Shown piece after piece: positions 2,453 through 19,987 of a stretch of 64,000 bases of DNA. The position numbers were made by a program, and so were the translations under genes. This DNA comes from Nocardiopsis coralli (GTDB lineage: Bacteria > Actinomycetota > Actinomycetes > Streptosporangiales > Streptosporangiaceae), in contig NZ_JADBGI010000010.1 in NCBI RefSeq assembly GCF_014892575.1, positions 62,001-126,000 of the forward strand, written 5' to 3'. The notes under the pieces were generated by a model. It did no database searches, was not told the DNA's origin, and saw only the letters and a program-made list of their open reading frames with translations. Position 1 is the first letter of the stretch. The number at the start of each line of letters is the position of its first letter.

Positions 2453-3946
2453 ATGCACGCTCCCCTGTTCACCGCCCCCGTCCTGCTGGTCGAGCAGCCG
2501 CACCGGCTCCACCGCAGCGAGGGCCACTACGAGGTGGTCGACGAACGCGGCCACCCGCTCGCCCACGTCAACGAGCACATGAGCTCCTGGCGGGGGCTGC
2601 GCGGACAGCACCGTCCGCACACCTTCACCATCTACGACACCCGGGGACGCCCGCTCATCACGCTGCACAAACCGTGGGAACGGGGCCGCCCGCACATCCA
2701 CGTCAGCGGGCCGCGCGGGGAGCGTTACGGCACCATCGTTCAGGACCGTTCCTTCACCGGTTCGCGCTTCCGGATCGACGACCCGCGCGGGCGCCGGGTG
2801 GGCGAGCTGCGGGGTGACCGCAAGGGGTGGCGGTACTCGGTACTCGACCACGCGGGTGTGGAGGTGGCCCGGCTCGGCAAGGAGCACCCGGGCCTGCGCG
2901 GGCAGTTCTTCACCACCGAGGACCGCTACGCGCTGGAGTTCGCCTACGACCTGCCCTGGCCGCTGCGGCGCATGGTGCTGGCGGCGGCGCTGACCGTGGA
3001 CGTGCTCCTGCACGAGCAGGAGGCGGAGTTCTACCACTCCCACTACGCCGACTTCCGGCGCTACCCCGAGTACGGGTACCAGCCGCGCCACCACTGGCAC
3101 CATCCGCGCCGGGGTTACCTGGTGGACCGGCGCCGGAGGGCTCCGCTGGCGCCGCGGTCGTCGTTCCGGGCACCGCACTCCGGTGGGGCGTACGTGCCGC
3201 TGCGGGAGAGCGCGCCGCCCCAGGCCGGGTACGCGCCCTACTCCGGCCCGGTGCACGCGGCGCACTCGGCGCCGGGGGTGCAACGTTCGGCGCCGGTCTC
3301 TCGGAACACCGCGGGGCCGCGGCGGACCACCCCCGGCGGCGGGGGCGGCGCCTCCAGCGGCGCGGGTGCCAGGCGCGCCCGCAGTGAGATGCAGCAGCGT
3401 TCGGCGCCGGCACGGCGGACCTCGGGCTCGGCTTCCTCGGCCTCCCGGTCGGGACCGGCGGTCGTGGGCTCCTCGCGTGCGGGCGGCTCGCGTGCGGGCG
3501 GTTCCGGTGCGTCGTTCGGCGGATCCGGCGGGGGCGGTTTCTCCGGCGGCGGTGGTTCCCGGGGTTCTGGGGCCTCCTCCGGGGGCGGGTCCCGGCGCAG
3601 CGGCGGGTCCTCGGGCGGCTCCCGCGGAGGCTTCGGCGGGGGCGGCTCGGGCGCGTCCTTCGGCGGCGGGCGTTCGTCCGGTGGCGGTGGCGGTTCCTCG
3701 TCCGGCGGGTCCCGCGGAGGCGGCGGCTCCAAGGGCGTCGGCGGCGGTTACCGCAGGTCGGGCGGGGCCGGCGGCTCCTCCCGCAGCGGGGGCGCCAAGA
3801 GTATGGGCGGTTCGCGGGGCGGGGGCTCCAAGGGCCGCGGCGGCTCGGCCCGCGGAGGCGGCGGTTCCCGGCGTTCGGGTGGCGGCGGCTCCCGGCGTTC
3901 GGGCGGCGGGGGTTCCCGCCGTTCCGGTGGCGGCCGCCGCAGGTGA
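2453..3946 (+). CDS. LURP-one/scramblase-like protein with Gly/Ser/Arg-rich tail
   Basis: The protein is 497 residues long in two parts. Residues 1-185 match the LURP-one-related/phospholipid-scramblase-like beta-barrel fold (start MHAPLFTAPVLLVEQ, repeated strands such as FRIDDPRGRRVGELRGD, and a final hydrophobic helix RRMVLAAALTVDVLLHEQEA). Residues 190-250 are rich in His, Arg, Tyr and Pro. The remainder is low complexity: many GGGS, GGSRGG and finally repeated GGGGSRRS units. The basic, flexible tail could bind nucleic acid, membrane phosphate or cell wall; that is inference. The start is an ATG at 2453 behind GAAAGG. The tail is absent from typical bacterial family members. Confidence 0.75.
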   Translation: MHAPLFTAPVLLVEQPHRLHRSEGHYEVVDERGHPLAHVNEHMSSWRGLRGQHRPHTFTIYDTRGRPLITLHKPWERGRPHIHVSGPRGERYGTIVQDRSFTGSRFRIDDPRGRRVGELRGDRKGWRYSVLDHAGVEVARLGKEHPGLRGQFFTTEDRYALEFAYDLPWPLRRMVLAAALTVDVLLHEQEAEFYHSHYADFRRYPEYGYQPRHHWHHPRRGYLVDRRRRAPLAPRSSFRAPHSGGAYVPLRESAPPQAGYAPYSGPVHAAHSAPGVQRSAPVSRNTAGPRRTTPGGGGGASSGAGARRARSEMQQRSAPARRTSGSASSASRSGPAVVGSSRAGGSRAGGSGASFGGSGGGGFSGGGGSRGSGASSGGGSRRSGGSSGGSRGGFGGGGSGASFGGGRSSGGGGGSSSGGSRGGGGSKGVGGGYRRSGGAGGSSRSGGAKSMGGSRGGGSKGRGGSARGGGGSRRSGGGGSRRSGGGGSRRSGGGRRR

Positions 3947-9192: not shown

Positions 9193-9209
9193 CCGCCGGC
9201 CCTGCTCTC

Positions 9210-9243
9210 CCGCGCCCGCCCCGGCCGCCCGGGACGGGCGCGG
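9210..9243 (+). terminator. hairpin after the acyl-CoA dehydrogenase operon
   Basis: A 9-bp stem (CCGCGCCCG at 9210-9218 with CGGGCGCGG at 9235-9243) lies 18 bases after the acyl-CoA dehydrogenase stop. It probably ends the four-gene operon. Confidence 0.55.
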
Positions 9244-9350
9244 TGTTCGTGCCACCTCCGATGCCCGGTGGAGCGCTTCGGAAGGCTGGTCGAGCACGGC
9301 CGGAGCCCTCTCGGTAAGCTTCCGCTCGGAACCGACCGGAGGAGGCGCCG

Positions 9351-10010
9351 ATGCCCCGGACCTTGATCGACCTCAGCCACGAGATCGACCACGGGATGAG
9401 CACGTATCCGGGGCTGCCCGGGCCCGAGATCTCCGACCACCTCAGCCGGGACACCTCCCGGGAGCACTACGACGCAGGGACCGAGTTCCACATCGGCCGC
9501 ATCTCGATGGTCGCCAACACCGGCACCTATCTGGACACACCCGCGCACCGCTACCCCGACGGCCACGATCTGGCGGCGTTGCCCCTGCACGCCGTGACCG
9601 ACCTCCCGGCGGCGGTCGTGGCGACGCGGGACCGCGCGATCGGCCCCGAGACCCTGGACGGTGTCGAGGTCGAGGGCGCGGCCGTGCTGTTCGCGACCGG
9701 GTGGGACCGCCACTGGGGCACCGAGGGCTACGGCGCGTCCGAGCACCCCTTCGTCACCGGGGAGACCGCCGAGCTCCTGGCCGAGCGCGGTGCGGCGCTG
9801 GTCGGGATCGACTCGGTCAACATCGACGACACCACTGGCGGCACGCGGCCCGCGCACTCCGCGCTGCTGGCCGCGGAGATCCCGATCGTGGAGCACCTGA
9901 CCGGGCTCGAGCAGCTGGTGGGCCGTTCGGCACGGTTCTCCGCGGTGCCGCCGAAGATCCGCGGGATGGGCACCTTCACGGTCCGTGCGTTCGCCGTCGT
10001 CGACGCCTGA
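9351..10010 (+). CDS. cyclase-family (kynurenine-formamidase-like) hydrolase, variant metal motif
   Basis: The 219-residue protein begins LIDLSHEIDHGMSTYPG, the typical opening of the cyclase/kynurenine formamidase family of metal-dependent amidohydrolases. The family's metal motif HxGTHxDxPxH is altered to NTGTYLDTPAH near residues 59-69: two of the three His ligands are replaced, while Asp and the last His stay. A subgroup with this spelling may bind metal differently. The C-terminal GMGTFTVRAFA is conserved. GGAGGAGG precedes the ATG. The substrate is unknown. It is separated from the preceding operon by a hairpin and has its own transcript. Confidence 0.8.
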   Translation: MPRTLIDLSHEIDHGMSTYPGLPGPEISDHLSRDTSREHYDAGTEFHIGRISMVANTGTYLDTPAHRYPDGHDLAALPLHAVTDLPAAVVATRDRAIGPETLDGVEVEGAAVLFATGWDRHWGTEGYGASEHPFVTGETAELLAERGAALVGIDSVNIDDTTGGTRPAHSALLAAEIPIVEHLTGLEQLVGRSARFSAVPPKIRGMGTFTVRAFAVVDA

Positions 10011-10025
10011 GCACGGCCGTACGGG

Positions 10026-11036
10026 TCAGCCGGCGGTGATGGTCTGGTCCCCGTCGGAGATCCAGCCGATCCGCCGCAACAGGACCGCGAAGACCCAGGC
10101 CAGCAGCGCGGGGACCACGAAGAAGAACGCCGCGATCAGACCGAGCACGTAGGGCGAGGTCCCCATCGTGTTGAGCGTCATGATCGGCCCCACCAACCCG
10201 GACGTGCCCATCCCCGCACCCGCGGCGTTGTTCTCCAGCGCGAACCCGACCGTCGCGATCGGGGCGGTGACCGCGCCGGCCAGCGTCGGCGGGATCAGGA
10301 TCCGGGGGTTGCGGAAGACGTTGGGGATCTGCAGCATCGACGTCCCCAGCCCCTGCGAGACCAGACCGCCCCACCCGTTGTCCCGGTAACCGGCGACGGC
10401 GAACCCGACCATCTGCGCGGCGCACCCCACGGCCGCGGCGCCCGCGGCCAGGCCGCTCAGGTCGAGCATGACCGCGATGGCCGCCGACGAGACGGGCAGG
10501 GTCAGCGCCAGGCCCATGAGCACCGCGACGAGCACGCTCATGAGCAGGGGCTGCTGCTCGGTCGCCCAGGAGATGAGCCCGCCGAAGCGGCGCAACCCCG
10601 CGTCGATGACCGGCCCCGCGACCCAGGACACGGCGAAGCCGGCCCCCACGGTGGTCAGCGGGGTGAGCACGATGTCGACCTTGGTCCGGCTCGACACGAG
10701 CTTTCCGGCCTCGGCCGCCACCAGCGCCGCCAGGAACGCCCCGGCCGGGCCGCCCAGTTCGGCGCCGGCCGCCCCGGTCGCCACCGAGGAGAACAGCACC
10801 AGGGGCGGCGCACCCAGGGAGTGGGCGACCGCCACACCGATCGCCGGGCCCATCATCGCCATCGCCAGCTCGCCGACCTCGACCAGGACGCCGACGCCGG
10901 TCTGCTCTCCGGCGGTCTGCAGGATCAACCCGATGATGAGCGACGAGAACAGGCCCAGCGCCATGGCGGACATGGAGGTGATGAAGTAGGTGTGCAGCGA
11001 CGGCCGTACGCCGCTGGATGCGAGAAACGCCTTCAC
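10026..11036 (-). CDS. PTS EIIC-like membrane protein
   Basis: The 336-residue protein is almost entirely hydrophobic, with about eight to ten membrane segments. Its N-terminus (YFITSMSAMALGLFSSLIIG near 18-37) and the segment PRILIPPTLAGAVTAPIATV match the PTS EIIC-type family found as stand-alone genes in Gram-positive bacteria. No EIIA, EIIB or HPr gene is present nearby and no phosphorylation site is fused to it. It may transport by a mechanism not tied to PEP, or use remote partners. It converges with the cyclase gene (15 bases between stops). A copy of the tetR 3' end lies upstream of it. Confidence 0.7.
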   Translation of the reverse strand: MKAFLASSGVRPSLHTYFITSMSAMALGLFSSLIIGLILQTAGEQTGVGVLVEVGELAMAMMGPAIGVAVAHSLGAPPLVLFSSVATGAAGAELGGPAGAFLAALVAAEAGKLVSSRTKVDIVLTPLTTVGAGFAVSWVAGPVIDAGLRRFGGLISWATEQQPLLMSVLVAVLMGLALTLPVSSAAIAVMLDLSGLAAGAAAVGCAAQMVGFAVAGYRDNGWGGLVSQGLGTSMLQIPNVFRNPRILIPPTLAGAVTAPIATVGFALENNAAGAGMGTSGLVGPIMTLNTMGTSPYVLGLIAAFFFVVPALLAWVFAVLLRRIGWISDGDQTITAG

Positions 11037-11126
11037 GAGGATCCCTTGGGTGGTCTGCGCTGCGTCGCAGCCGGGTACAGCCCGCCCATCTTGCCACCTG
11101 CGGCCGGCCCCCGCGTCCCCCGGGTC

Positions 11127-11197
11127 AGCCGGTGTGCGTCAGCGAGGAGAGCAGGTCGGCGAAGTGCCGTCCCACGTCCGCGCCGGTCAGGGGCCCG
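11127..11197 (-). pseudogene. displaced 3'-end fragment of the tetR gene (direct repeat, left copy)
   Basis: These 71 bases are identical to 17563-17636, the 3' end of the tetR gene, except that three bases (one Ile codon) are missing. Read leftward they encode GPLTGADVGRHFADLL then SSLTHTG and a TGA stop in place of the TAG of the intact gene. There is no 5' portion here. The fragment overlaps the last codons of the aconitase gene, whose stop lies inside it. It is best explained as the old end of tetR left behind when the 6.4-kb island entered. Confidence 0.85.
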
Positions 11198-13829
11198 CGG
11201 AGGGTGCTCCTCCCTCGGGCTCGAGGCGCTCCATCAGGGACGGAACGACCCCGCCCTTGGCCAGGATCTCCCTCTCCGACGCGGTCTCCACCGCCAGGGA
11301 GACTGATACGTCCTCCTGTCCCCCCGAGACGGTCACGACCCTCACGCGCATGTCCGCGTCCGGCCCGGCCATGATCTCGGCGACCGGTACCTCGACCCGG
11401 TCCCCGGACGCGACCCGGTCCAGGCCGTCCGACGCCGGTCCCGTGCGGACCAGCGGCAGAATACCCATACCGATGAGGTTGGTCCGGTGGATCCGTTCGA
11501 AACTGCGGGCGATGACGGCACGGACCCCCAACAGCTTCTGCGCCTTCGCGGCCCAGTCGCGTGAGGAACCGGTTCCGAACCTCTCGCCCGCGATGATCAC
11601 CACCGGTGTTCCCTCGGCCGAGTAACGCTGTGCGGCTTCCCAGACAGTCACCGTCTCCCCGCTCGGCGCGTGGACCGTGTGGGCGGTCGGGGCTTCCGGC
11701 GCCAGCCGGTTGGTCAGTGCATGGTTGTAGAAGGCACCGCGGACCATGACTTCCCAGTTGCCCCGGCGCGAGGCGAACACGTTGAGGTCGTCCCGGTCCT
11801 CACCACGCTCGACCAGGAAGTCCGCTACGAAGCTCTCCCGGGGGATCGCGCTCGCGGGTGAGATGTGGTCGGTGGTGACGTCGTCGCCCAACACGAGGAG
11901 GGGGTGGGCAGCGAAGGTGCCGGACGGAGCGCCTACCCGGTCCTCCGCGAACGGTGGCGGCCGAAGTACCGTCGAGCGCGGATCCCACGGGAACCGGGCG
12001 CCCGGCGGGGCATCGACGGCCTCCCAAGCCCGGTTCCGCGCGGCTGATCGGAACTCACGGCCGAAATCCTGTGCGTCGAGCGCGACCGAGAGCAACTCGT
12101 CGATCTCCTCGTGACTCGGCCACAGGTCGGCGAGTCCGATCTCCCGACCGTTCCGAACCGTGATCGGTTCGCGGGTCAGGTCCTGGTCGGCGTCCCCGGC
12201 CAGTGCATAAGCCACGACCATGGGCGGGCTCATGAGGAACCCCGTGTCCAGGTCGGGATGCACCCTTCCGGGAAAGTTGCGGTTACCCGAAAGGATCGCG
12301 ACCGGGCGCACGCCACCCCGGGCCTGCGCGCGTTCGATCTCCGGGGTCAAGGGACCGGAATTCCCGATGCAGGTCGCGCACCCGAAACCGACGATGTCGA
12401 AGCCCGTCTCGGAGAGGTCCTCGGACAGGCCGGCCCGTTGCAGGTAGGACGCCGCCGCGGGTGATCCCGGGGCCAGGGATGTCTTCACCCACCGCTTCGG
12501 AACCAGACCGTACTCACGCGCCCGCCGGGCGAGGAGCCCGGCCGCGATGAGCATCCGGGGGTCAGTGGTGTTGGTGCAACTGGTGATCGAGGCCAGCGCC
12601 ACCGGGTGGGTGGGGAGGTCGCGCTCGCGATCGGCACCGGGACACGGTGCCGGGTGGTTGGCCAGCGCAGCCGGGATCGCGCTGATCGGCAAGTGGTCCT
12701 GGGGCCTCTGCGGGCCCGCCGCGCTCGTACTGATCGCGTCCATGTCGATCCGTACGGTTCGTGTGTACTCGGGGGTGGCGTCGGGATCACCCCACAGCCC
12801 GGCTTTCCTGCAGTAGGCCTCGACCAGGTCGATGTGCTGGTGACTGCGACCGGTCAGAGTCAGGTATCGCAGCACCTGCTCGTCAACCGGGAAGTAGCCC
12901 GTGGTGGCACCGAACTCCGGAGCCATGTTCGCCACTGCTGCGCGTTCGCCCACGGTGAGTGTCGTGACGCCGGGGCCGTGGAACTCGACGAACGCCCCCG
13001 TCACCCCGAGGGAACGCAGCCGTTCGGTGACCACGAGGGCGAGGTCGGTGGCCATGACGCCCGGACGGAGGCGCCCGTGCAGTTCGACCCCGACGACGTC
13101 GGGGATCTGCAGGGACGTGGGCATCCCGAACATGACGGTCTCGGCCTCCAGGCCTCCAATGCCCCACCCCAGCACGCCCAGCCCGTTGATCATCGGCGTG
13201 TGGCTGTCCGTTCCCAGCATCATGTCCGGGTGGACCGTTCGGTGCCCGCTGCCCCCTCGGGTCTCGACCACTGTGGCCAACTGCTCCAGATTGATGGTGT
13301 GCATGATCCCGGTTCCCGGGGGGTTGATGTGCACGTTGCCCATCTCGCGGGCGGCCCATTTGAGGAACCGGTAGCGCTCTCGGTTGCGCCTCACCTCTTC
13401 GCGGACGTTGAGGCCCGCCGCGTCCTTGCGGCCGTAGACCTCCACCGCCAGGGAGTGGTCGACGGAGATCTCGACCGGCAGGGACGGACTCATCGAGGCC
13501 GGATCTCTCCCGCCCCGGGCCAGGCGGTCGCGCATCGCGGCCATGTCGACCAGGGCGGGCGTGCTGGTGGTGTCGTGCATCAGGAGCCGCCCCGGCGTGA
13601 AGCCGATCTCGACGGTGCTGGAGCGGTCGGTGATCCAGTCCCTGATCGCCCCGACCATGCGCCGGCGGTCATGTGCGGACGCGCACCTGCTGACGTTCTC
13701 GGCGAGCAACCGGAGCACGAACGGCCACCGCTGCCAGCCCGGACCGAGCACGCGCGGGATGTCGACCATCTCCAAGAGATCCCCTGCGTGCTCGAGTGTC
13801 GTGATCGGGCCGTCCTGTGAGCGCGCCAA
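11187..13829 (-). CDS. aconitase-family hydratase (divergent AcnA type)
   Basis: An 880-residue aconitase. The [4Fe-4S] ligands are in SITSCTNTTDP (one Cys) and GFGCATCIGNSGPL (two Cys); GTDSHTPMINGLGVLGWG and GSSRDWAAKAQKLLGVRAV are conserved active-site segments. The N-terminal region has LLMHDTTSTPALVDMAAM where housekeeping enzymes have a QDFTGVPAVVD-type sequence, so it belongs to a separate branch. Together with the divergent CitMHS transporter gene it suggests use of citrate, isocitrate, aconitate or a related tricarboxylate. The start is TTG with GAGG upstream. The final residues (around APSAGP) are encoded partly in the tetR repeat, so the C-terminus was altered at the recombination joint. 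Confidence 0.9.
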   Translation of the reverse strand: MARSQDGPITTLEHAGDLLEMVDIPRVLGPGWQRWPFVLRLLAENVSRCASAHDRRRMVGAIRDWITDRSSTVEIGFTPGRLLMHDTTSTPALVDMAAMRDRLARGGRDPASMSPSLPVEISVDHSLAVEVYGRKDAAGLNVREEVRRNRERYRFLKWAAREMGNVHINPPGTGIMHTINLEQLATVVETRGGSGHRTVHPDMMLGTDSHTPMINGLGVLGWGIGGLEAETVMFGMPTSLQIPDVVGVELHGRLRPGVMATDLALVVTERLRSLGVTGAFVEFHGPGVTTLTVGERAAVANMAPEFGATTGYFPVDEQVLRYLTLTGRSHQHIDLVEAYCRKAGLWGDPDATPEYTRTVRIDMDAISTSAAGPQRPQDHLPISAIPAALANHPAPCPGADRERDLPTHPVALASITSCTNTTDPRMLIAAGLLARRAREYGLVPKRWVKTSLAPGSPAAASYLQRAGLSEDLSETGFDIVGFGCATCIGNSGPLTPEIERAQARGGVRPVAILSGNRNFPGRVHPDLDTGFLMSPPMVVAYALAGDADQDLTREPITVRNGREIGLADLWPSHEEIDELLSVALDAQDFGREFRSAARNRAWEAVDAPPGARFPWDPRSTVLRPPPFAEDRVGAPSGTFAAHPLLVLGDDVTTDHISPASAIPRESFVADFLVERGEDRDDLNVFASRRGNWEVMVRGAFYNHALTNRLAPEAPTAHTVHAPSGETVTVWEAAQRYSAEGTPVVIIAGERFGTGSSRDWAAKAQKLLGVRAVIARSFERIHRTNLIGMGILPLVRTGPASDGLDRVASGDRVEVPVAEIMAGPDADMRVRVVTVSGGQEDVSVSLAVETASEREILAKGGVVPSLMERLEPEGGAPSAGP

Positions 13830-13861
13830 CGTCGACCTCTTCCTGCTCGGGATCAGAAGTA

Positions 13862-13876
13862 TATTTTATAATCTAT
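13862..13876. promoter_or_regulatory. AT-rich operator candidate, copy 1 (before aconitase)
   Basis: TATTTTATAATCTAT lies 33 bases upstream of the aconitase TTG. A copy differing at one base occurs at 13977-13991, and a 12/15 match in inverted orientation lies before gntR at 16791-16805. On the lower strand the region also supplies a TATAAAAT-like -10 element for the aconitase promoter, so protein binding here would block it. The likely ligand is the island's GntR/FCD protein (inference). Confidence 0.6.
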
Positions 13877-13930
13877 ACCTTCCGAGTGCACACTCGGGCA
13901 CTCCGGGCCACCCACCCTCACATCGGCCGA

Positions 13931-13991
13931 TTGACACCGAGCTCACGCCCTCGTGTAGCCTGCCTCACATAATCCATATTTTATATTCTAT
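13931..13991 (+). promoter_or_regulatory. citM-type promoter with AT-rich operator copy 2
   Basis: TTGACA (13931-13936) and TAGCCT (13956-13961), spaced by 19 bases, form a promoter reading toward the CitMHS gene. The motif TATTTTATATTCTAT at 13977-13991 lies just beyond the expected transcription start, a typical repressor position. The 303-base stretch 13830-14132 contains no gene; it is the divergent control region of the island. Confidence 0.6.
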
Positions 13992-14132
13992 GTCCTCGCC
14001 TGTGGCCACCAGCGCAGGGCCAGGTCATCCCTTTGTCCCGCCGACATGCCCCTCGGCCCCCGGACCTTCCCAGGCCCGCCCCCGACCGCGCCCGGCGCCG
14101 GCGATGCCGACGCGAACCAGAAGGAGATCCCC

Positions 14133-15503
14133 GTGGAGGACACATCCGCACTACTGACCACGGTCGGGCTGTGCGTCATCGGATCCACGGTCGCCCTGCT
14201 CATCTGGGGCAGGCTGCACCCCATCGTCCCTCTCGCCCTCACCCCGGCCGTGGGAGCCCTGTTGGCCGGTTTCAGCACAGCTGAGATCGGTGAGTTCTTC
14301 TCCTCCGGCCTGAGTCAGGTGATCGAGGTGGCGATCATGCTGATCTTCGCCATCGTCTTCTTCGGGATCATCATCGACTCGGGCTTGTTCAATCCGCTCA
14401 TCCGGGGACTCATCCTGGCCACCCGGGGCAAGGTGGTGCTCGTGGCGATCGGCACCTCGCTGATGGCGATCGTCGCCCATGTCGACGGGGCCGGCGCCAG
14501 CACGTTCCTGTTGGTGATCCCGGCGCTACTGCCTCTGTACAAGGCACTGAACATGAGCCGTTACCTGCTTCTACTGCTCGTGGTCATGAGCGCCAGTGTG
14601 TTCAACATGATCCCTTGGGGAGGCCCGCTGGGACGCGCGGCGAGCGCCGTCGACGAGGACGTCATCGAGCTCTACCAACCGTTGCTCGCGGTCCAAGCGA
14701 TCTCGGTCCTCCTCATCGTGCTCTTCGCCGCCTACCTGGGCACCAGGGAGAAACGCCGGATCGCCGCGGCCGTCTCGGCCGGGGACCTCCCAGCACAGGA
14801 GGGCGTTTCCGTCCGGCGCATCGCGGACGACTTCTCGGCCGAGCGCGAGAAGGAGGCACAGCAGCTCGGGGGCGACGTGCGCAGGAACCGCACCGTACTG
14901 ACCATGAACGCCGTCCTACTGTTGACCGTGGTGACCGTGATGATGGCCGGCCTCGTTCCGCCGGCCCTTGCCTTCATCCTGGGGGTCGCCGCCGCTCTCC
15001 CCTTGAACGTCCGCACGGCCCAGGGACAGATGGAACGGGTCAGGGCCCACGCGCCCGCCGCGCTGATGACGACATCGATCCTCTTCGCAGCGAGCATCTT
15101 CCTCGGGGTCCTCAACGAGAGCGGCATGCTCGCCTCCATCGCGACTTCCGCGCTCCTGGTCGTCCCGGAGGGCGTGGGGCCGCAACTGCACCTCGTCGTC
15201 GGGTTCTTCGGGGTGCCTTTGGATCTGCTGACCAGCACCGATGCCTACTACTTCTCCCTACTCCCGCTGGTGGACGCCACCGCCGGGGAGTTCGGAGTGG
15301 ACACGACCTCCACGCTGTACGCCATGCTGATCGGCAACGTGACCGGTACTTTCATGAGCCCGTTCACCGCCGGTACCTGGCTCGCGGTCGGGCTGGTCGG
15401 CGGCCAGATCGGCAAGCACATCCGTTATTCTTTCCTGCCGCTGTGGTTCATGAGCATCCTGCTGATCCTCGTCGCAGTCGCCCCCGGAGTGATCGGACTG
15501 TGA
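14133..15503 (+). CDS. CitMHS-family citrate-metal symporter
   Basis: A 456-residue transporter with about twelve predicted membrane segments. Family-typical segments include GRLHPIVPLALTPAVGALLAG near the N-terminus, VDGAGASTFLLVIPALLPLY near 120-139 and NMIPWGGPLGRAA near 160-172. Characterised members move citrate complexed with Mg2+ or Ca2+ in exchange for protons; the metal preference here is unknown. The GTG start has an ideal ribosome site (AAGGAGATCCCC); longer frames upstream lack one. It diverges from the aconitase gene and is followed 16 bases later by an MFS gene, probably in the same transcript. Confidence 0.88.
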   Translation: MEDTSALLTTVGLCVIGSTVALLIWGRLHPIVPLALTPAVGALLAGFSTAEIGEFFSSGLSQVIEVAIMLIFAIVFFGIIIDSGLFNPLIRGLILATRGKVVLVAIGTSLMAIVAHVDGAGASTFLLVIPALLPLYKALNMSRYLLLLLVVMSASVFNMIPWGGPLGRAASAVDEDVIELYQPLLAVQAISVLLIVLFAAYLGTREKRRIAAAVSAGDLPAQEGVSVRRIADDFSAEREKEAQQLGGDVRRNRTVLTMNAVLLLTVVTVMMAGLVPPALAFILGVAAALPLNVRTAQGQMERVRAHAPAALMTTSILFAASIFLGVLNESGMLASIATSALLVVPEGVGPQLHLVVGFFGVPLDLLTSTDAYYFSLLPLVDATAGEFGVDTTSTLYAMLIGNVTGTFMSPFTAGTWLAVGLVGGQIGKHIRYSFLPLWFMSILLILVAVAPGVIGL

Positions 15504-15519
15504 GAAGAGGGCAGAATTG

Positions 15520-16770
15520 ATGGCTCCGCGTCCTCGGCTGTGGATCGCGCTCCTGTCCGCCATGGCGCTGACCAACCAGCTCTCGGTGAACATCGTCAGG
15601 CCGGCCACCACGTACAAGGTCGACGAACTCGGCGGGGACACCACCGTGGTGGGGCTCATCGCGGCCGCCTATGCGGTGGTGCCGCTGGTCTCGGCGATGT
15701 CCGTCGGCCGGCTCGCGCAACGCCTCCCGGCCCTGAGCGGCCTGATGGCGGGCGGTTTCCTCACCATGCTGGCGGGGGCCGCCGCGATCGCCCTCTCCCC
15801 CGCTGTGTGGGCCATGTTCGCCGGAACGGCCCTGTTGGGGTTCGGGCAGTTGGTGTTCACCATCGGCGGCCAGTCAGCGGTCGGCCGGATCGCGGGCGAG
15901 CGCCGGCTCGACTCCGGTTTCGGCTGGTTCACCGCCGGTGTCTCGGCGGGCCAGATGCTGGGGCCTCCCACAGCCGGTTGGATCATGGTCCGCCCCGATT
16001 CCGCCCCCTTTCCCGGTGGGAGCGACGCGGCCATCGCCTTCGGCGGTCTCGTCGTCCTGCCGGCCCTGGCCGTCCTCGCGGCGTCGGTGCTGCGGTCCCA
16101 CAAGGGCACAGGAACTGCGACGGGCGGGGCGTTCCCGACGAAGGGTGTCCCACACGGTTCCGGCCCCGGTTCCCGGCCCGAACACGTCAGTGCCCGGCAG
16201 ATTCTCCGGCGTCCGGGCGTGGGCTCGCACGTGGTCGCCTCTTCCGGACTCCTCGCCCTGACCGACATCCTGGTCGCGTTCGTCCCCCTTCTCGGGGAGG
16301 AAGCAGGCCTCTCCCCGGTCGTGGTCGGCCTGCTGCTCGCCATGCGAGGGGTGGGGTCGCTGCTCTCGCGTGTACTCCTCGGGACGCTGACCGCCCGTGT
16401 CAGGCGGGAGACGTTACTGACGGCAAGCCTGGTCTGCTCGGCGGCGTCCTTCACCGCCTTCCCGTTCACACTGGGCCATCCGGGGGCCGCGGGCGTGCTG
16501 ATGGTGATCGGAGGGTTCTTCCTGGGGTTGGGACAACCCCTCACCATGTCCCTGGTCGCCCTCGCCGTCCCACCGGGATGGCGTCCGCCCGCCTTGGCGC
16601 TGCGTCTGGTGGGCAACCGGCTCGGTCAGGTCGTCGTCCCGGTCGCGGCAGGAGCGATCGCGGCTCCGGCCGGCCCCGCTGGAGCGGTGTGGCTAGGAAG
16701 CGGTCTCCTCATGGTCTCGGTGGCCGAACGGCGGTTGTCACCGGGCCGCCGGAAGGGCGAGGAGATCTGA
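15520..16770 (+). CDS. MFS transporter
   Basis: A 416-residue protein with twelve predicted membrane helices in two halves separated by a hydrophilic loop near residues 195-225. The N-terminal LTNQLSVNIVRPATTYKVDEL and SAMSVGRLAQRLP near the helix 2-3 loop fit the major facilitator superfamily. The substrate is not evident. It follows the CitMHS gene by 16 bases and precedes gntR, so it may export a product of tricarboxylate metabolism or be a second uptake route. The ATG at 15520 follows GAAGAGGGCAGAATTG. Confidence 0.82.
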   Translation: MAPRPRLWIALLSAMALTNQLSVNIVRPATTYKVDELGGDTTVVGLIAAAYAVVPLVSAMSVGRLAQRLPALSGLMAGGFLTMLAGAAAIALSPAVWAMFAGTALLGFGQLVFTIGGQSAVGRIAGERRLDSGFGWFTAGVSAGQMLGPPTAGWIMVRPDSAPFPGGSDAAIAFGGLVVLPALAVLAASVLRSHKGTGTATGGAFPTKGVPHGSGPGSRPEHVSARQILRRPGVGSHVVASSGLLALTDILVAFVPLLGEEAGLSPVVVGLLLAMRGVGSLLSRVLLGTLTARVRRETLLTASLVCSAASFTAFPFTLGHPGAAGVLMVIGGFFLGLGQPLTMSLVALAVPPGWRPPALALRLVGNRLGQVVVPVAAGAIAAPAGPAGAVWLGSGLLMVSVAERRLSPGRRKGEEI

Positions 16771-16790
16771 ACCGAGCACAGGAAGGTCGT

Positions 16791-16805
16791 ACAGCATATA
16801 AAGTA
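16791..16805. promoter_or_regulatory. AT-rich operator candidate, copy 3 (before gntR)
   Basis: The lower strand reads TACTTTATATGCTGT, matching 12 of 15 positions of the motif at 13977-13991. It lies about 80 bases upstream of the gntR start, consistent with autoregulation of the island regulator. Confidence 0.5.
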
Positions 16806-16883
16806 CAGGTTGTTGAACCTCGGTACCGACCATGCGGACATAAACCCCGTGTACAGCAGCACGGGCGCCCCAGGGAGAAAACC

Positions 16884-17564
16884 ATGCCACCGCCCACCTG
16901 GACCAAAGCCGGTTATGCCTACGAACAGGTCCGTCGGCGCATCATGGCGGGCGCCCTCGAGTCCGGCCAGACACTCCCTCTCGGACAGCTCACGGAGGAG
17001 TTCGGCGTGAGCATGACTCCGATGCGTGAGGCCTTGCGCAGGCTTGACGCAGAGGGACTGGTCGTCATCGACGTGCATCGCAACGCCCGGGTGGCGGCGC
17101 TCTCGGCAGAGGAAGCGGTGCACCTGTTCGAGCTGCGGGAGAAGCTCGATCCGATGGCAGCTTCACTCGCTGCCGAACGCCGTTCCAAAGCGGATTCCGA
17201 GCACATCCGCGCCACGCTCGACCGGATGCAGCCCTTGGAGGACGAACACGACCTCGATGCGTTGGCTGCTCACCGCGACTTCCACCGTGCCGTCTACCGG
17301 GCTTCCCGGAACCCGCTGCTCATCGAAACCCTCGAAGGGCTCTGGGACAAGGCGGACCGGTACCGCCAGCTGGGGATCGCCTCCCTGCGCGACGACGAGG
17401 ACGACCGCGCGCGTGTCCACCGCGAACACACGGCGATCGCGGAGGCCGTCATCGGCGGAGACGCGGAGACCGCAGAGCAGGAAATGCTCGCCCACGTGAG
17501 GGGGAGCCTGGGACGGCGGGCCATCGGCGTGTTGGACCCGGCCACGGAGAGGGACAAGAGCTAG
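16884..17564 (+). CDS. GntR-family regulator, FCD (FadR) subfamily
   Basis: A 226-residue protein with an N-terminal winged helix (QVRRRIMAGALESGQTLPLG, then LTEEFGVSMTPMREALRRLDAEGLV near residues 35-59) and an all-helical FCD ligand domain. Metal-binding FCD residues are visible as D/H positions in AAHRDFHRAVYRAS near 135-148 and HREHTAIAEAV near 179-189. FCD regulators commonly sense organic acids; control of the adjacent tricarboxylate genes is the natural inference. AGGGAGAAAACC precedes the ATG. Its TAG stop overlaps the stop codon of the convergent tetR gene, exactly at the island edge. Confidence 0.9.
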   Translation: MPPPTWTKAGYAYEQVRRRIMAGALESGQTLPLGQLTEEFGVSMTPMREALRRLDAEGLVVIDVHRNARVAALSAEEAVHLFELREKLDPMAASLAAERRSKADSEHIRATLDRMQPLEDEHDLDALAAHRDFHRAVYRASRNPLLIETLEGLWDKADRYRQLGIASLRDDEDDRARVHREHTAIAEAVIGGDAETAEQEMLAHVRGSLGRRAIGVLDPATERDKS

Positions 17565-18175
17565 CCGGTGTGCGTCAGCGAGGAGATGAGCAGGTCGGCG
17601 AAGTGCCGTCCCACGTCCGCGCCGGTCAGGGGCCCGTCCTCGCGGTACCAGGTGCTGAGGTGGTGCACCGAACCGAAGTAGAAGTCCACGACGAGGTCGG
17701 CGGAGACGTCGCTGCGGAAGGTCCCCTCGGCCTGGCCCTGCTCGATCATGGAGCGGAAGTGCTCGTGGTACTTGCGCCGCTCGGCCCGCACCGTGCGCTG
17801 CTTCTCCTCGCCGAGCTGGTGCATCGACCGGAAGAAGATGACGGTGTCGTCCAGGTTGTCGACGCTGGTGACGATCACGTCGACCGCCGCGGCGTGCACC
17901 CGTTCGGTGACGGGTTCGGGCCGGCCGGAGATCTCCACCAGGTGGTCGGTCTGCATGCGCAGCACACGCGCGTAGACCTCGTAGAGCAGGTCGTCCTTGG
18001 AACCGAAGTAGTGGTACATGGCGCCCTTGGTCACGCCGGCGGCCGCCACGATCGCCTGCACGGAGGTGCCCTCGTAACCGCGCTCGGCGAACAGCCGGGT
18101 CGCGGCCCTCAAGAGCCGTTCGGGCACCGGTCCCGTCGCGGTGCCGTTGCCGTCGTCCTCGCGCGCCTGTGCCAT
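17561..18175 (-). CDS. TetR-family transcriptional regulator
   Basis: A 204-residue TetR-type repressor. The N-terminal helix-turn-helix is RLFAERGYEGTSVQAIVAAAGVTKGAMYHYFGSKDDLLYEVY (around residues 25-66), followed by an all-helical ligand domain. The ATG at 18175 has GAGG six bases upstream; the frame is open further but no better start is seen. A site starting ATACCGACC lies 60 bases upstream, and the same sequence is the operator of the SDR/kinase/acyl-CoA dehydrogenase operon at 5339, so this protein may control that operon and itself. Its last 24 codons exist in a second copy at 11127-11197. Confidence 0.9.
   Translation of the reverse strand: MAQAREDDGNGTATGPVPERLLRAATRLFAERGYEGTSVQAIVAAAGVTKGAMYHYFGSKDDLLYEVYARVLRMQTDHLVEISGRPEPVTERVHAAAVDVIVTSVDNLDDTVIFFRSMHQLGEEKQRTVRAERRKYHEHFRSMIEQGQAEGTFRSDVSADLVVDFYFGSVHHLSTWYREDGPLTGADVGRHFADLLISSLTHTG
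17563..17636 (-). repeat. direct repeat, right copy (3' end of intact tetR)
   Basis: These 74 bases form the C-terminal codons of the intact tetR gene and match 11127-11197 base for base apart from a 3-base indel. The two copies have the same orientation and bracket the aconitase/CitMHS island, as expected when an insertion regenerates the end of its target gene. Confidence 0.85.
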
Positions 18176-18235
18176 CTCTTGCCTCACCTCGTGTCCCCGC
18201 CCCGTCGCGGGTCCTCGTGTGCCAACCGTGCCAGC

Positions 18236-18253
18236 ATACCGACCGGCTGGTAC
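18236..18253. promoter_or_regulatory. TetR-type operator candidate before tetR
   Basis: ATACCGACCGGCTGGTAC is an imperfect palindrome (TACCGACCGGCTGGTA, 6 of 8 pairs) 60 bases upstream of the tetR start. Its first nine bases equal those of the operator at 5339-5356. Autoregulation is likely. Confidence 0.55.
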
Positions 18254-18306
18254 CCGAGGTACCCGCTGCACGGGAGCGTCGGAACACACCGGGTTGCCGA
18301 CCGCGG

Positions 18307-18341
18307 CCGCCGGGCCCTCCCTTCGTGGGAAGGCCCGGCGG
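18307..18341 (-). terminator. terminator of the alpha-glucoside operon
   Basis: A long hairpin: CCGCCGGGCC (18307-18316) pairs with GGCCCGGCGG (18332-18341), with an inner 4-bp stem TCCC/GGGA and a short loop TTCGT. It lies just after the GH13 stop on the lower strand and also separates that operon from tetR. Confidence 0.65.
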
Positions 18342-18352
18342 TACCGGCGGGC

Positions 18353-19987
18353 TCAACGCGGGGCGGTGTCCACCCACACGGCCCGGTCGGGTCCGAGTTC
18401 CCCCGTGTGTGCGGGGTCGCTGTGCAGCAGGGGTTCACCCTCGGGCAGCGGCAGGGGCTGCGTTCCGAGGTTGACCGCGCACATCAGGCTGCCACGGGTG
18501 AACCGCAGCAGGTCGGGGTGCTCCGGATCGCCGTGCCACTCCAGGTCCCCGGCGCCCACCCAGTGTGCGCGGCGCAGGGCGATGGCGCTGCGGTAGAGCG
18601 TGAGCACCGAACCCTCGCCGTTCTGCTCGGAGGCGGCCAGCTCACCCCACAGGGCGGGCTGGGGCAGCCAGGGTTCGGCCGAACCGAACCCGTACCCGGG
18701 CCGGTCGGCCTCCCAGGGCAGGGGCACCCGGCAGCCGTCGCGGCCCTTGAGCTCGCCGTCGCTGCGGTGGTACATGGGGTCGTCCAGGGCGGCCCCGGGC
18801 AGGTCGGCGACCTCGGGCAGCCCCAGTTCCTCACCCTGGTAGACGTAGGCCGACCCCGGCAGCGCCATGGTCAGCAGCACCGCGGCGCGGGCGCGGCGCA
18901 GCCCCAGTTCGTCGTCCACGGGCGGCTGCGTGCCACCGGAGTGCAGCCACGCGTTCTGGTCCACGTCGCGGGGCAACCCGTAGCGGGTGCGGTGGCGGAT
19001 CTGGTCGTGGTTGGACAGCACCCAGCTGGGCGCGGCCCGCAGCCCTTCGAGCCCGGCCAGGGACCGGTCGATGGTGGTGCGCAGCTCGCGGGCGTCCCAC
19101 GGGCAGCGCAGGTAGAAGAAGTTGAACGCCTGGTGGAGTTCGTCGTCGCGCACGTACAGGGGCAGGCGGTCCAGGCTGACCCCGGCCTCGGCCACGGCCA
19201 TCCGGGGCGGGTCGTAGGAGTCCAGGAGCTTGCGCCACTCCCGGTGGATCTCGTGCACCTCGTCGCGGTCCCAGAACGGGTGGTCGTCGCCGGCCGGGGG
19301 CGACATGAGTGGGGCGGCGTCGTTGCCGTACGTGGGGCGCAGCGGTTCCTCGAGGTCCTTGAACATCCCGTGGGCGACGTCGACGCGGAAGCCGTCCACA
19401 CCCGCGTCGCACCAGAACCTCAGGGTACGCAGGAAGTCGGCGCGCACCTCGTCGTTGTGCCAGTTCAGGTCGGGCTGCTCGCGGGCGAAGATGTGCATGT
19501 ACCACTGGCCGTCGGGCACCTGTTCCCAGGCGGGCCCGCCGAACTTGGACTGCCAGTCCGAGGGGGGCTGCGACCCGTCGGGGCCGATTCCGTCCCGGAA
19601 GACGAACCGGTCGCGCTCGGGCGACCCGGGCGGGGCCGCCAGGGCCTCCTGGAACCAGGGGTGCTGGTCGGAGCAGTGGTTGGGCACGATGTCGATGATG
19701 ATGCGGATCCCGCGTGCGTGGGCGGCCTCCACCAGGGTGCGGAAGTCGTCCATGTCCCCGTACACGGGGTCGACACCGCGGTAGTCGCGCACGTCGTATC
19801 CCCCGTCGGCCAGCGGGGAGGGGAAGAAGGGGGTCAGCCACAGGGCGTCGACCCCGAGGCCCTCGAGGTGGTCCAGGCGTGCGGTGATCCCGGGCAGGTC
19901 ACCGACCCCGTCACCGTCGGAGTCGTGGAAACTGCGCACGTAGATCTGGTAGACCACGGCGTCGCGCCACCAGTCGCGGTCGGGCAC
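18353..19987 (-). CDS. GH13-family alpha-glucosidase
   Basis: A 544-residue glycoside hydrolase family 13 enzyme. DAVVYQIYVRSFHDSDGDGVGDL near 9-31 and GVDALWLTPFFPSPLADGGYDV near 44-65 are N-terminal hallmarks; IIIDIVPNHCSDQHPWF near 98-114, GFRVDVAHGM near 202-211 (nucleophile Asp), VAEAG near 265 (acid/base Glu) and LSNHD near 323 are conserved regions I-IV. QIYVRSF with no signal peptide suggests an intracellular oligosaccharide hydrolase acting on maltose-type or other alpha-glucosides. It is the last gene of the ABC transporter operon. The GTG start follows GGAAAGGATC. Confidence 0.9.
   Translation of the reverse strand: MPDRDWWRDAVVYQIYVRSFHDSDGDGVGDLPGITARLDHLEGLGVDALWLTPFFPSPLADGGYDVRDYRGVDPVYGDMDDFRTLVEAAHARGIRIIIDIVPNHCSDQHPWFQEALAAPPGSPERDRFVFRDGIGPDGSQPPSDWQSKFGGPAWEQVPDGQWYMHIFAREQPDLNWHNDEVRADFLRTLRFWCDAGVDGFRVDVAHGMFKDLEEPLRPTYGNDAAPLMSPPAGDDHPFWDRDEVHEIHREWRKLLDSYDPPRMAVAEAGVSLDRLPLYVRDDELHQAFNFFYLRCPWDARELRTTIDRSLAGLEGLRAAPSWVLSNHDQIRHRTRYGLPRDVDQNAWLHSGGTQPPVDDELGLRRARAAVLLTMALPGSAYVYQGEELGLPEVADLPGAALDDPMYHRSDGELKGRDGCRVPLPWEADRPGYGFGSAEPWLPQPALWGELAASEQNGEGSVLTLYRSAIALRRAHWVGAGDLEWHGDPEHPDLLRFTRGSLMCAVNLGTQPLPLPEGEPLLHSDPAHTGELGPDRAVWVDTAPR

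Follow-up and report, generated by a model that had tools for sequence, protein, structure and literature searches.

A four-gene island at the 3' end of a tetR gene in Nocardiopsis coralli, flanked by a probable long target duplication

In the stretch of Nocardiopsis coralli DNA analysed here (64,000 nucleotides, referred to as the window), an island of 6365 bases carrying four genes (11198..17562) lies at the 3' end of a tetR-family regulator gene, between two directly repeated copies of that gene end. This island is absent from the same site in relatives and is low in GC3. We consider it probable that a foreign 6.4-kb segment was inserted at the tetR 3' end by an illegitimate event, with a 74-base duplication of the target. 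The duplication of target DNA is well supported by the sequence comparisons below, and its mechanism (break repair or template switching) is what we infer from them. The proposal builds on an empty site in a relative, an identifiable native copy of the repeat and a codon bias of the cargo that differs from that of its surroundings, all of which were observed, as well as on the absence of integrase and transposase genes, which was observed in part.

The left copy of the repeat (11127..11197, 71 bases) and the right copy (17563..17636, 74 bases) run in the same direction and match fully except for a gap of three bases, which are absent from the left copy and can be placed as TCA, CAT or ATC; dropping three consecutive bases from the right copy yields the left copy letter for letter. 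The right copy is the 3' end of the intact tetR gene (17561..18178, minus strand), and the left copy appears to be the original tetR 3' end (tetR sense being the minus strand), severed from its gene. The stop codons differ, with TGA at the left copy and TAG in tetR. The first-pass annotation had described just this, a 71-base fragment equal to the tetR end apart from one 3-base indel and the TGA for TAG, in the same orientation, and its coordinates proved exact. Two of the three bases of the tetR stop (TAG, 17561-17563) are island DNA, and two bases of the stop of the neighbouring gntR gene on the opposite strand (17562-17564) come from the repeat, the two stops overlapping in a shared CTAG. 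A search of the organism's own genome with positions 11100-11230 returned, among the matches listed, only the query itself and the second copy, the latter at E = 1.3e-27 (40 of 181 first-look candidates were scored in this repeat search). Within the window, the tetR repeat is one of two direct-repeat families detected with a seed of 16 and a minimum length of 40, the other being a low-complexity, 73%-identical family at 3583-3885. A role of the repeat as a terminator or RNA element was rejected: five folds of the repeat strands were no better than those of shuffled sequences (z from -1.03 to 0.67), and two terminator-like matches at 14265 and 16865 lie outside the repeats and are no more than occur in shuffles.

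The empty site was found in a sister species, G023, which has the most similar tetR gene among 39 relatives in the genus (96% protein identity) and is without the island. There, tetR runs directly into a PTS EIIC-like gene (PF13303; 10026..11036, minus strand, in the window) and carries a single repeat copy, one stretch to which both window copies align. Window positions 9631-11198 and 17563-18500 thus align to adjoining parts of one G023 locus (L004) and share its one copy, and the DNA that follows the stop codon of the left copy is that found downstream in G023. It had been predicted from the window alone that island-free relatives would have tetR joined to the EIIC-like gene through the left-hand version of the sequence; the join and the continuing DNA were as predicted, but G023 keeps the Ile codon that the left copy lacks. 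Since this codon and the TGA stop are common to G023, G039 and G014, the left copy seems to have lost three bases, and the TAG of tetR seems to have arisen at the island junction. Its native downstream flank and its TGA as in G023 indicate that the left copy is the original tetR end, three bases short in view of the Ile codon in the relatives, the most plausible account of the Ile difference being that this copy later lost 3 bases. The alternative that the left copy is a decayed full-length second tetR at 11127, which had been named as a finding that would overturn the insertion reading, was rejected, as the tetR homology there ends after 71 bases and G023 has one copy.

The island was missing from the site in G023 and in all 28 other relatives measured (29 of 29), 10 of the 39 relatives having given no locus. 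In these 28 genomes only 73-248 bases separate the acd stop from the tetR end (taken as the base equivalent to window position 17585), so no other element occupies the site there. Both N. coralli and G023 have a cyclase gene and the EIIC-like gene between acd and tetR (window 9193-11126). This pair was likely an earlier gain at the same convergent acd-tetR gap, because the two gene ends are so close together in the 28 other relatives. Relatives of the EIIC-like gene (70-72%) occur at other places in G014, G039 and G016. A long flanking repeat around the cyclase/EIIC pair was searched for and none was found, and an older duplication around the pair was rejected on this ground.

The insertion is apparently young, judging from the divergence of the sequences. 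No substitution separates the two copies over 71 aligned bases, whereas 9 of 74 positions differ between the right copy and G023; fourfold sites differ from G023 at 18 of 107 in tetR and at 48 of 224 in the EIIC-like gene. In a simple neutral count, the probability of no change between the copies is 0.09 if the duplication is 0.2 times as old as the G023 split, 0.03 at 0.3 and 0.003 at half, an age bound that gene conversion between the copies would loosen. The recent insertion at the tetR 3' end proposed in the first-pass annotation is borne out by these unsubstituted copies together with the empty site.

Pfam and NCBIfam identified the island genes, a tricarboxylate set according to that annotation, as an AcnA-like aconitase (11187..13829, minus strand), a CitMHS citrate:proton symporter-like transporter (14136..15503, plus strand; start uncertain, with 14046 possible), an MFS transporter (15520..16770, plus strand) and a GntR-FCD regulator (16884..17564, plus strand); the start codons of the aconitase and MFS genes are also uncertain. 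Judging from these families, the set probably serves citrate-like acids, allowing citrate or a related acid to be taken up and degraded. Together the four genes occupy the whole island apart from about 435 non-coding bases, if the chosen start codons hold. The Pfam/NCBIfam scan of these four main genes revealed no integrase or transposase, in agreement with the earlier remark that no integrase is present. No terminal inverted repeats were evident in the 120 bases at each island end, where only short, chance-like matches of at most 10 bases occurred at positions that do not match, and there were no flanking IS copies, the tetR tract being the island's only close flanking repeat. The two outer genes, aconitase and gntR, point outward and both end at the joins. 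Aconitase homology stops at residue 868 of 880, after which unconserved codons lead into the left tetR copy and end at a TGA inside it (11187-11189); homologous GntR proteins have similar lengths and unconserved tails, and the gntR stop TAG spans the junction between island and repeat. With these stops supplied (aconitase) or completed (gntR) by tetR DNA, the result is four readable genes plus an intact tetR.

The island genes look foreign by their codon composition. Their GC3 values are 0.860 (aconitase), 0.875 (CitMHS), 0.851 (MFS) and 0.824 (gntR), compared with 0.931-0.968 in 11 flanking genes, so the GC3 and codon-usage comparison suggested earlier came out in favour of a foreign origin; such a bias is a sign of foreignness and not of the route of entry. 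CitMHS matches (E <= 0.001) were present in 13 of 40 genus genomes including that of N. coralli, and the best one in the 39 genus relatives was 48% identical. The N. coralli genome itself encodes more distant CitMHS paralogues on contigs C12 (38%) and C35 (48%, full length). At the DNA level, the best-scoring genus match among those listed was G010, with 65% identity over about 2.2 kb of the aconitase gene, and short pieces among the matches listed reached up to 73% over 265 bases (G023, CitMHS). Distant gntR-aconitase pairs (about 46-51% identity) occur in five genus members (G038, G010, G008, G032 and G036), and parts of the set are therefore not foreign to the genus as families; by their sequences, the island copies are not close relatives of these pairs. 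Outside the genus, the closest CitMHS among the best 80 of 167 relatives was from Nesterenkonia (60% identity), and none of these 80 loci, some of them broken by contig ends, held all four genes. G305 has an aconitase (63% identical) and a gntR (60%) as divergent neighbours, and gntR-MFS pairs are present in other genera. At stricter thresholds, CitMHS was found in the own genome only among 394 class genomes (E <= 1e-135), as was the MFS gene among 345 order genomes (E <= 1e-90). Plasmid records contained distant relatives only, with CitMHS below 60% identity in all 145 matching records.

Under the proposed mechanism, the foreign segment with the aconitase, CitMHS, MFS and GntR genes would have entered at the 3' end of the resident tetR gene, leaving the 74 target bases on each side of it. 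Two nicks about 74 nt apart might have opened the target for the incoming DNA to be ligated, with filling of the overhangs; alternatively, a repair fork might have departed from the end of tetR, used the incoming DNA as its template and re-entered about 74 bases earlier. Three bases would afterwards have been lost from the left copy. All 71 aligned bases are shared by the two copies, but 9 of 74 in the right copy are different in G023; the sequence of both is thus that of the N. coralli lineage, as a duplicated target would explain better than an attP with an evolutionary history of its own. Of 40 genus genomes, 23 encode Ku, including those of N. coralli and G023, and in N. coralli an open reading frame adjoining the Ku gene has weak matches to ATP-dependent ligases, one just over and one under the Pfam cut-off. 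The presence of Ku makes end joining possible without showing that it acted. Several points weigh against the illegitimate insertion. The joins are not readable for microhomology without the donor sequence; only about a dozen codons at most separate each island end from the functional end of the outer gene beside it, and no surplus DNA lies there, a tidy outcome for random breaks; Ku is found in just 23 of the 40 genus genomes; and the surveyed 31% of the genome holds only one such footprint.

That survey covered 2,005,558 of 6,398,852 bases for repeat pairs of 28-600 bases with at least 92% identity and a spacing of 0.4-60 kb. It gave 17 pairs, of which eight fall in one repetitive stretch (C5:10465-31591) and nine outside it; the comparison with an empty site in a relative was made for one of the 17, the tetR island pair. 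The pairs outside the repetitive stretch with a spacing above 2 kb comprise the tetR island, an integrase element and two copies of a short palindromic repeat. The integrase element (C5:91250-101444; loci L249 and L250) has perfect 40-base repeats, an open reading frame for a PF00589 tyrosine integrase (100110-101393) beside one of them and a Prim-Pol/DUF3987 protein, and its detection indicates that the survey was able to see integrase-type islands. No second integrase-free footprint was found in the surveyed bases, and no habit of the genome is therefore claimed. The survey also brought up a dispersed 56-base near-palindromic element with the ends GGATCTTGCTAC and GTAGCAAGATCC on contigs C2, C3, C4, C5, C10 and C12 (for example at C4:135770-135825), with 12 full copies and 29 half-site matches in the surveyed bases, which looks like a REP- or MITE-type repeat. 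On contig C2 (135103-137106), two stretches of about 237 bases are 94% identical and 1.5 kb apart, the first covering the start of a 546-codon open reading frame; they are possibly a partial gene duplication.

The main rival to illegitimate insertion is that a tyrosine integrase, acting in trans or since lost, used the tetR 3' end as its attB, so that the right copy would be element-derived and restore the gene end as in tRNA-gene islands. Integrase islands classically lie at a gene end, between repeats of the same orientation and with the gene intact on one side, and all three features are present at the tetR site, in a genome that has the integrase-bearing element on C5. Yet no integrase is among the four genes, about 435 bases are non-coding, and no other element was seen at the site in the 28 measured relatives. 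Moreover, with copies that match at 71 of 71 positions where the sister species differs at 9 of 74, the attP would need to have originated in the same lineage, together with its silent-site variants. We therefore regard an integrase as an unlikely agent here. The earlier statement that the incoming DNA supplied a new gene end accordingly is not supported in the integrase sense, but the island does give two of the three bases of the TAG; of that interpretation as a whole, the recent insertion, the foreign bias and the empty site held up, and the integrase-style integration with a supplied end did not. A transposition with an unusually long target duplication and a transposase in trans would also leave repeats of this appearance, and some IS families do produce long target duplications; however, with no transposase among the four genes and no terminal inverted repeats beyond the short, chance-like matches at the island ends, we give it very little credence.

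Homologous recombination offers two further readings. A single crossover of a circle carrying the four genes and a same-lineage tetR 3' fragment would create direct repeats and explain the observed structure as well as the silent-site identity, and an Arabidopsis study (PMC2869330) discusses such circles, in the portions of its text available to us, among the sources of repeats that flank relocated genes. Such a circle must already hold the tetR end of this lineage, however, which only shifts the question one step back, and no close relative was found among the 145 plasmid records with a CitMHS match; we consider this origin improbable. Alternatively, the island could be ancestral and have been lost from G023 and others by recombination between the repeats, which would restore the same empty site; PMC2884548, in its available portions, considers that repeat-flanked variable segments of three other species may result from deletion between the repeats. 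Against such a history, an absence of substitutions between copies as old as the G023 split is very unlikely, barring gene conversion, the island is absent at the site in 29 of 29 relatives examined, and its GC3 is low, so an ancestral island seems highly improbable to us.

Compared with known systems, the tetR island shares with integrase-borne islands the same-orientation direct repeats, the foreign content and the position at a gene 3' end with the gene intact. It differs from them in having no integrase gene beside either repeat, in contrast to the PF00589 protein of the C5 element, whose repeats are also shorter (40 bases versus 71/74), in copies that are identical at lineage-specific silent sites, and in a site free of other elements in 28 of 28 measured relatives. 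Unlike transposons and IS composites, it shows neither inverted repeats at its termini nor IS copies beside it. Homology-facilitated illegitimate recombination (de Vries and Wackernagel 2002, as cited in PMC2884548) likewise takes in foreign DNA by way of one or more illegitimate joins, so far as the cited portions describe the process, but a homologous anchor between island and site is not demonstrable here without the donor. According to the same portions of PMC2884548, direct repeats, mostly shorter than 30 bases, flank 10-18% of the small variable segments of three other species.

How an integrase-free island entered its genome can often no longer be seen, while the tetR island provides a clean, young footprint with an empty-site reference, from which the target duplication can be read in the sequence, and hence a searchable signature for gene capture without integrase or transposon. 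If capture at staggered breaks is true, it would be a way of gaining genes without an integrase in which neither the host gene nor the cargo loses its function. As a tentative generalization, Ku-bearing high-GC bacteria may capture metabolic cassettes at staggered breaks in gene ends, with long target duplications supplying stop codons and no integrase involved.

The closest counterpart is insertion with long target duplication, described from a comparison of two H. pylori strains (Nobusato, Uchiyama, Ohashi and Kobayashi, Gene 2000; known here through passages in PMC1643837, PMC3031569, PMC4978471 and PMC2869330) and, according to these passages, frequently tied to restriction-modification genes and regarded as a sign of gene mobility. 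In one open collection, titles and abstract openings on "long target duplication" contained no actinomycete metabolic cassette, which is no proof of absence. As in that process, so far as the passages describe it, the island is in one genome and absent at the orthologous G023 site, it is flanked by a direct repeat (71/74 bases) that is single at the empty site, and the scan of its four main genes found no transposase or integrase. Duplication length is expected to vary from event to event in this process, of which the survey of 2.0 of 6.4 Mb yielded one. Unlike there, restriction-modification genes, a frequent though not strictly defining feature, are absent and the cargo consists of an aconitase, two transporters and a regulator; the host is high in GC, and what was duplicated is the end of a coding gene, which itself remains intact. 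The apparently young tetR island is thus a real and well-resolved case of a footprint already known but seldom studied, here with another kind of cargo, which would extend a pattern tied, in the passages cited, to restriction-modification genes to ordinary catabolic genes.
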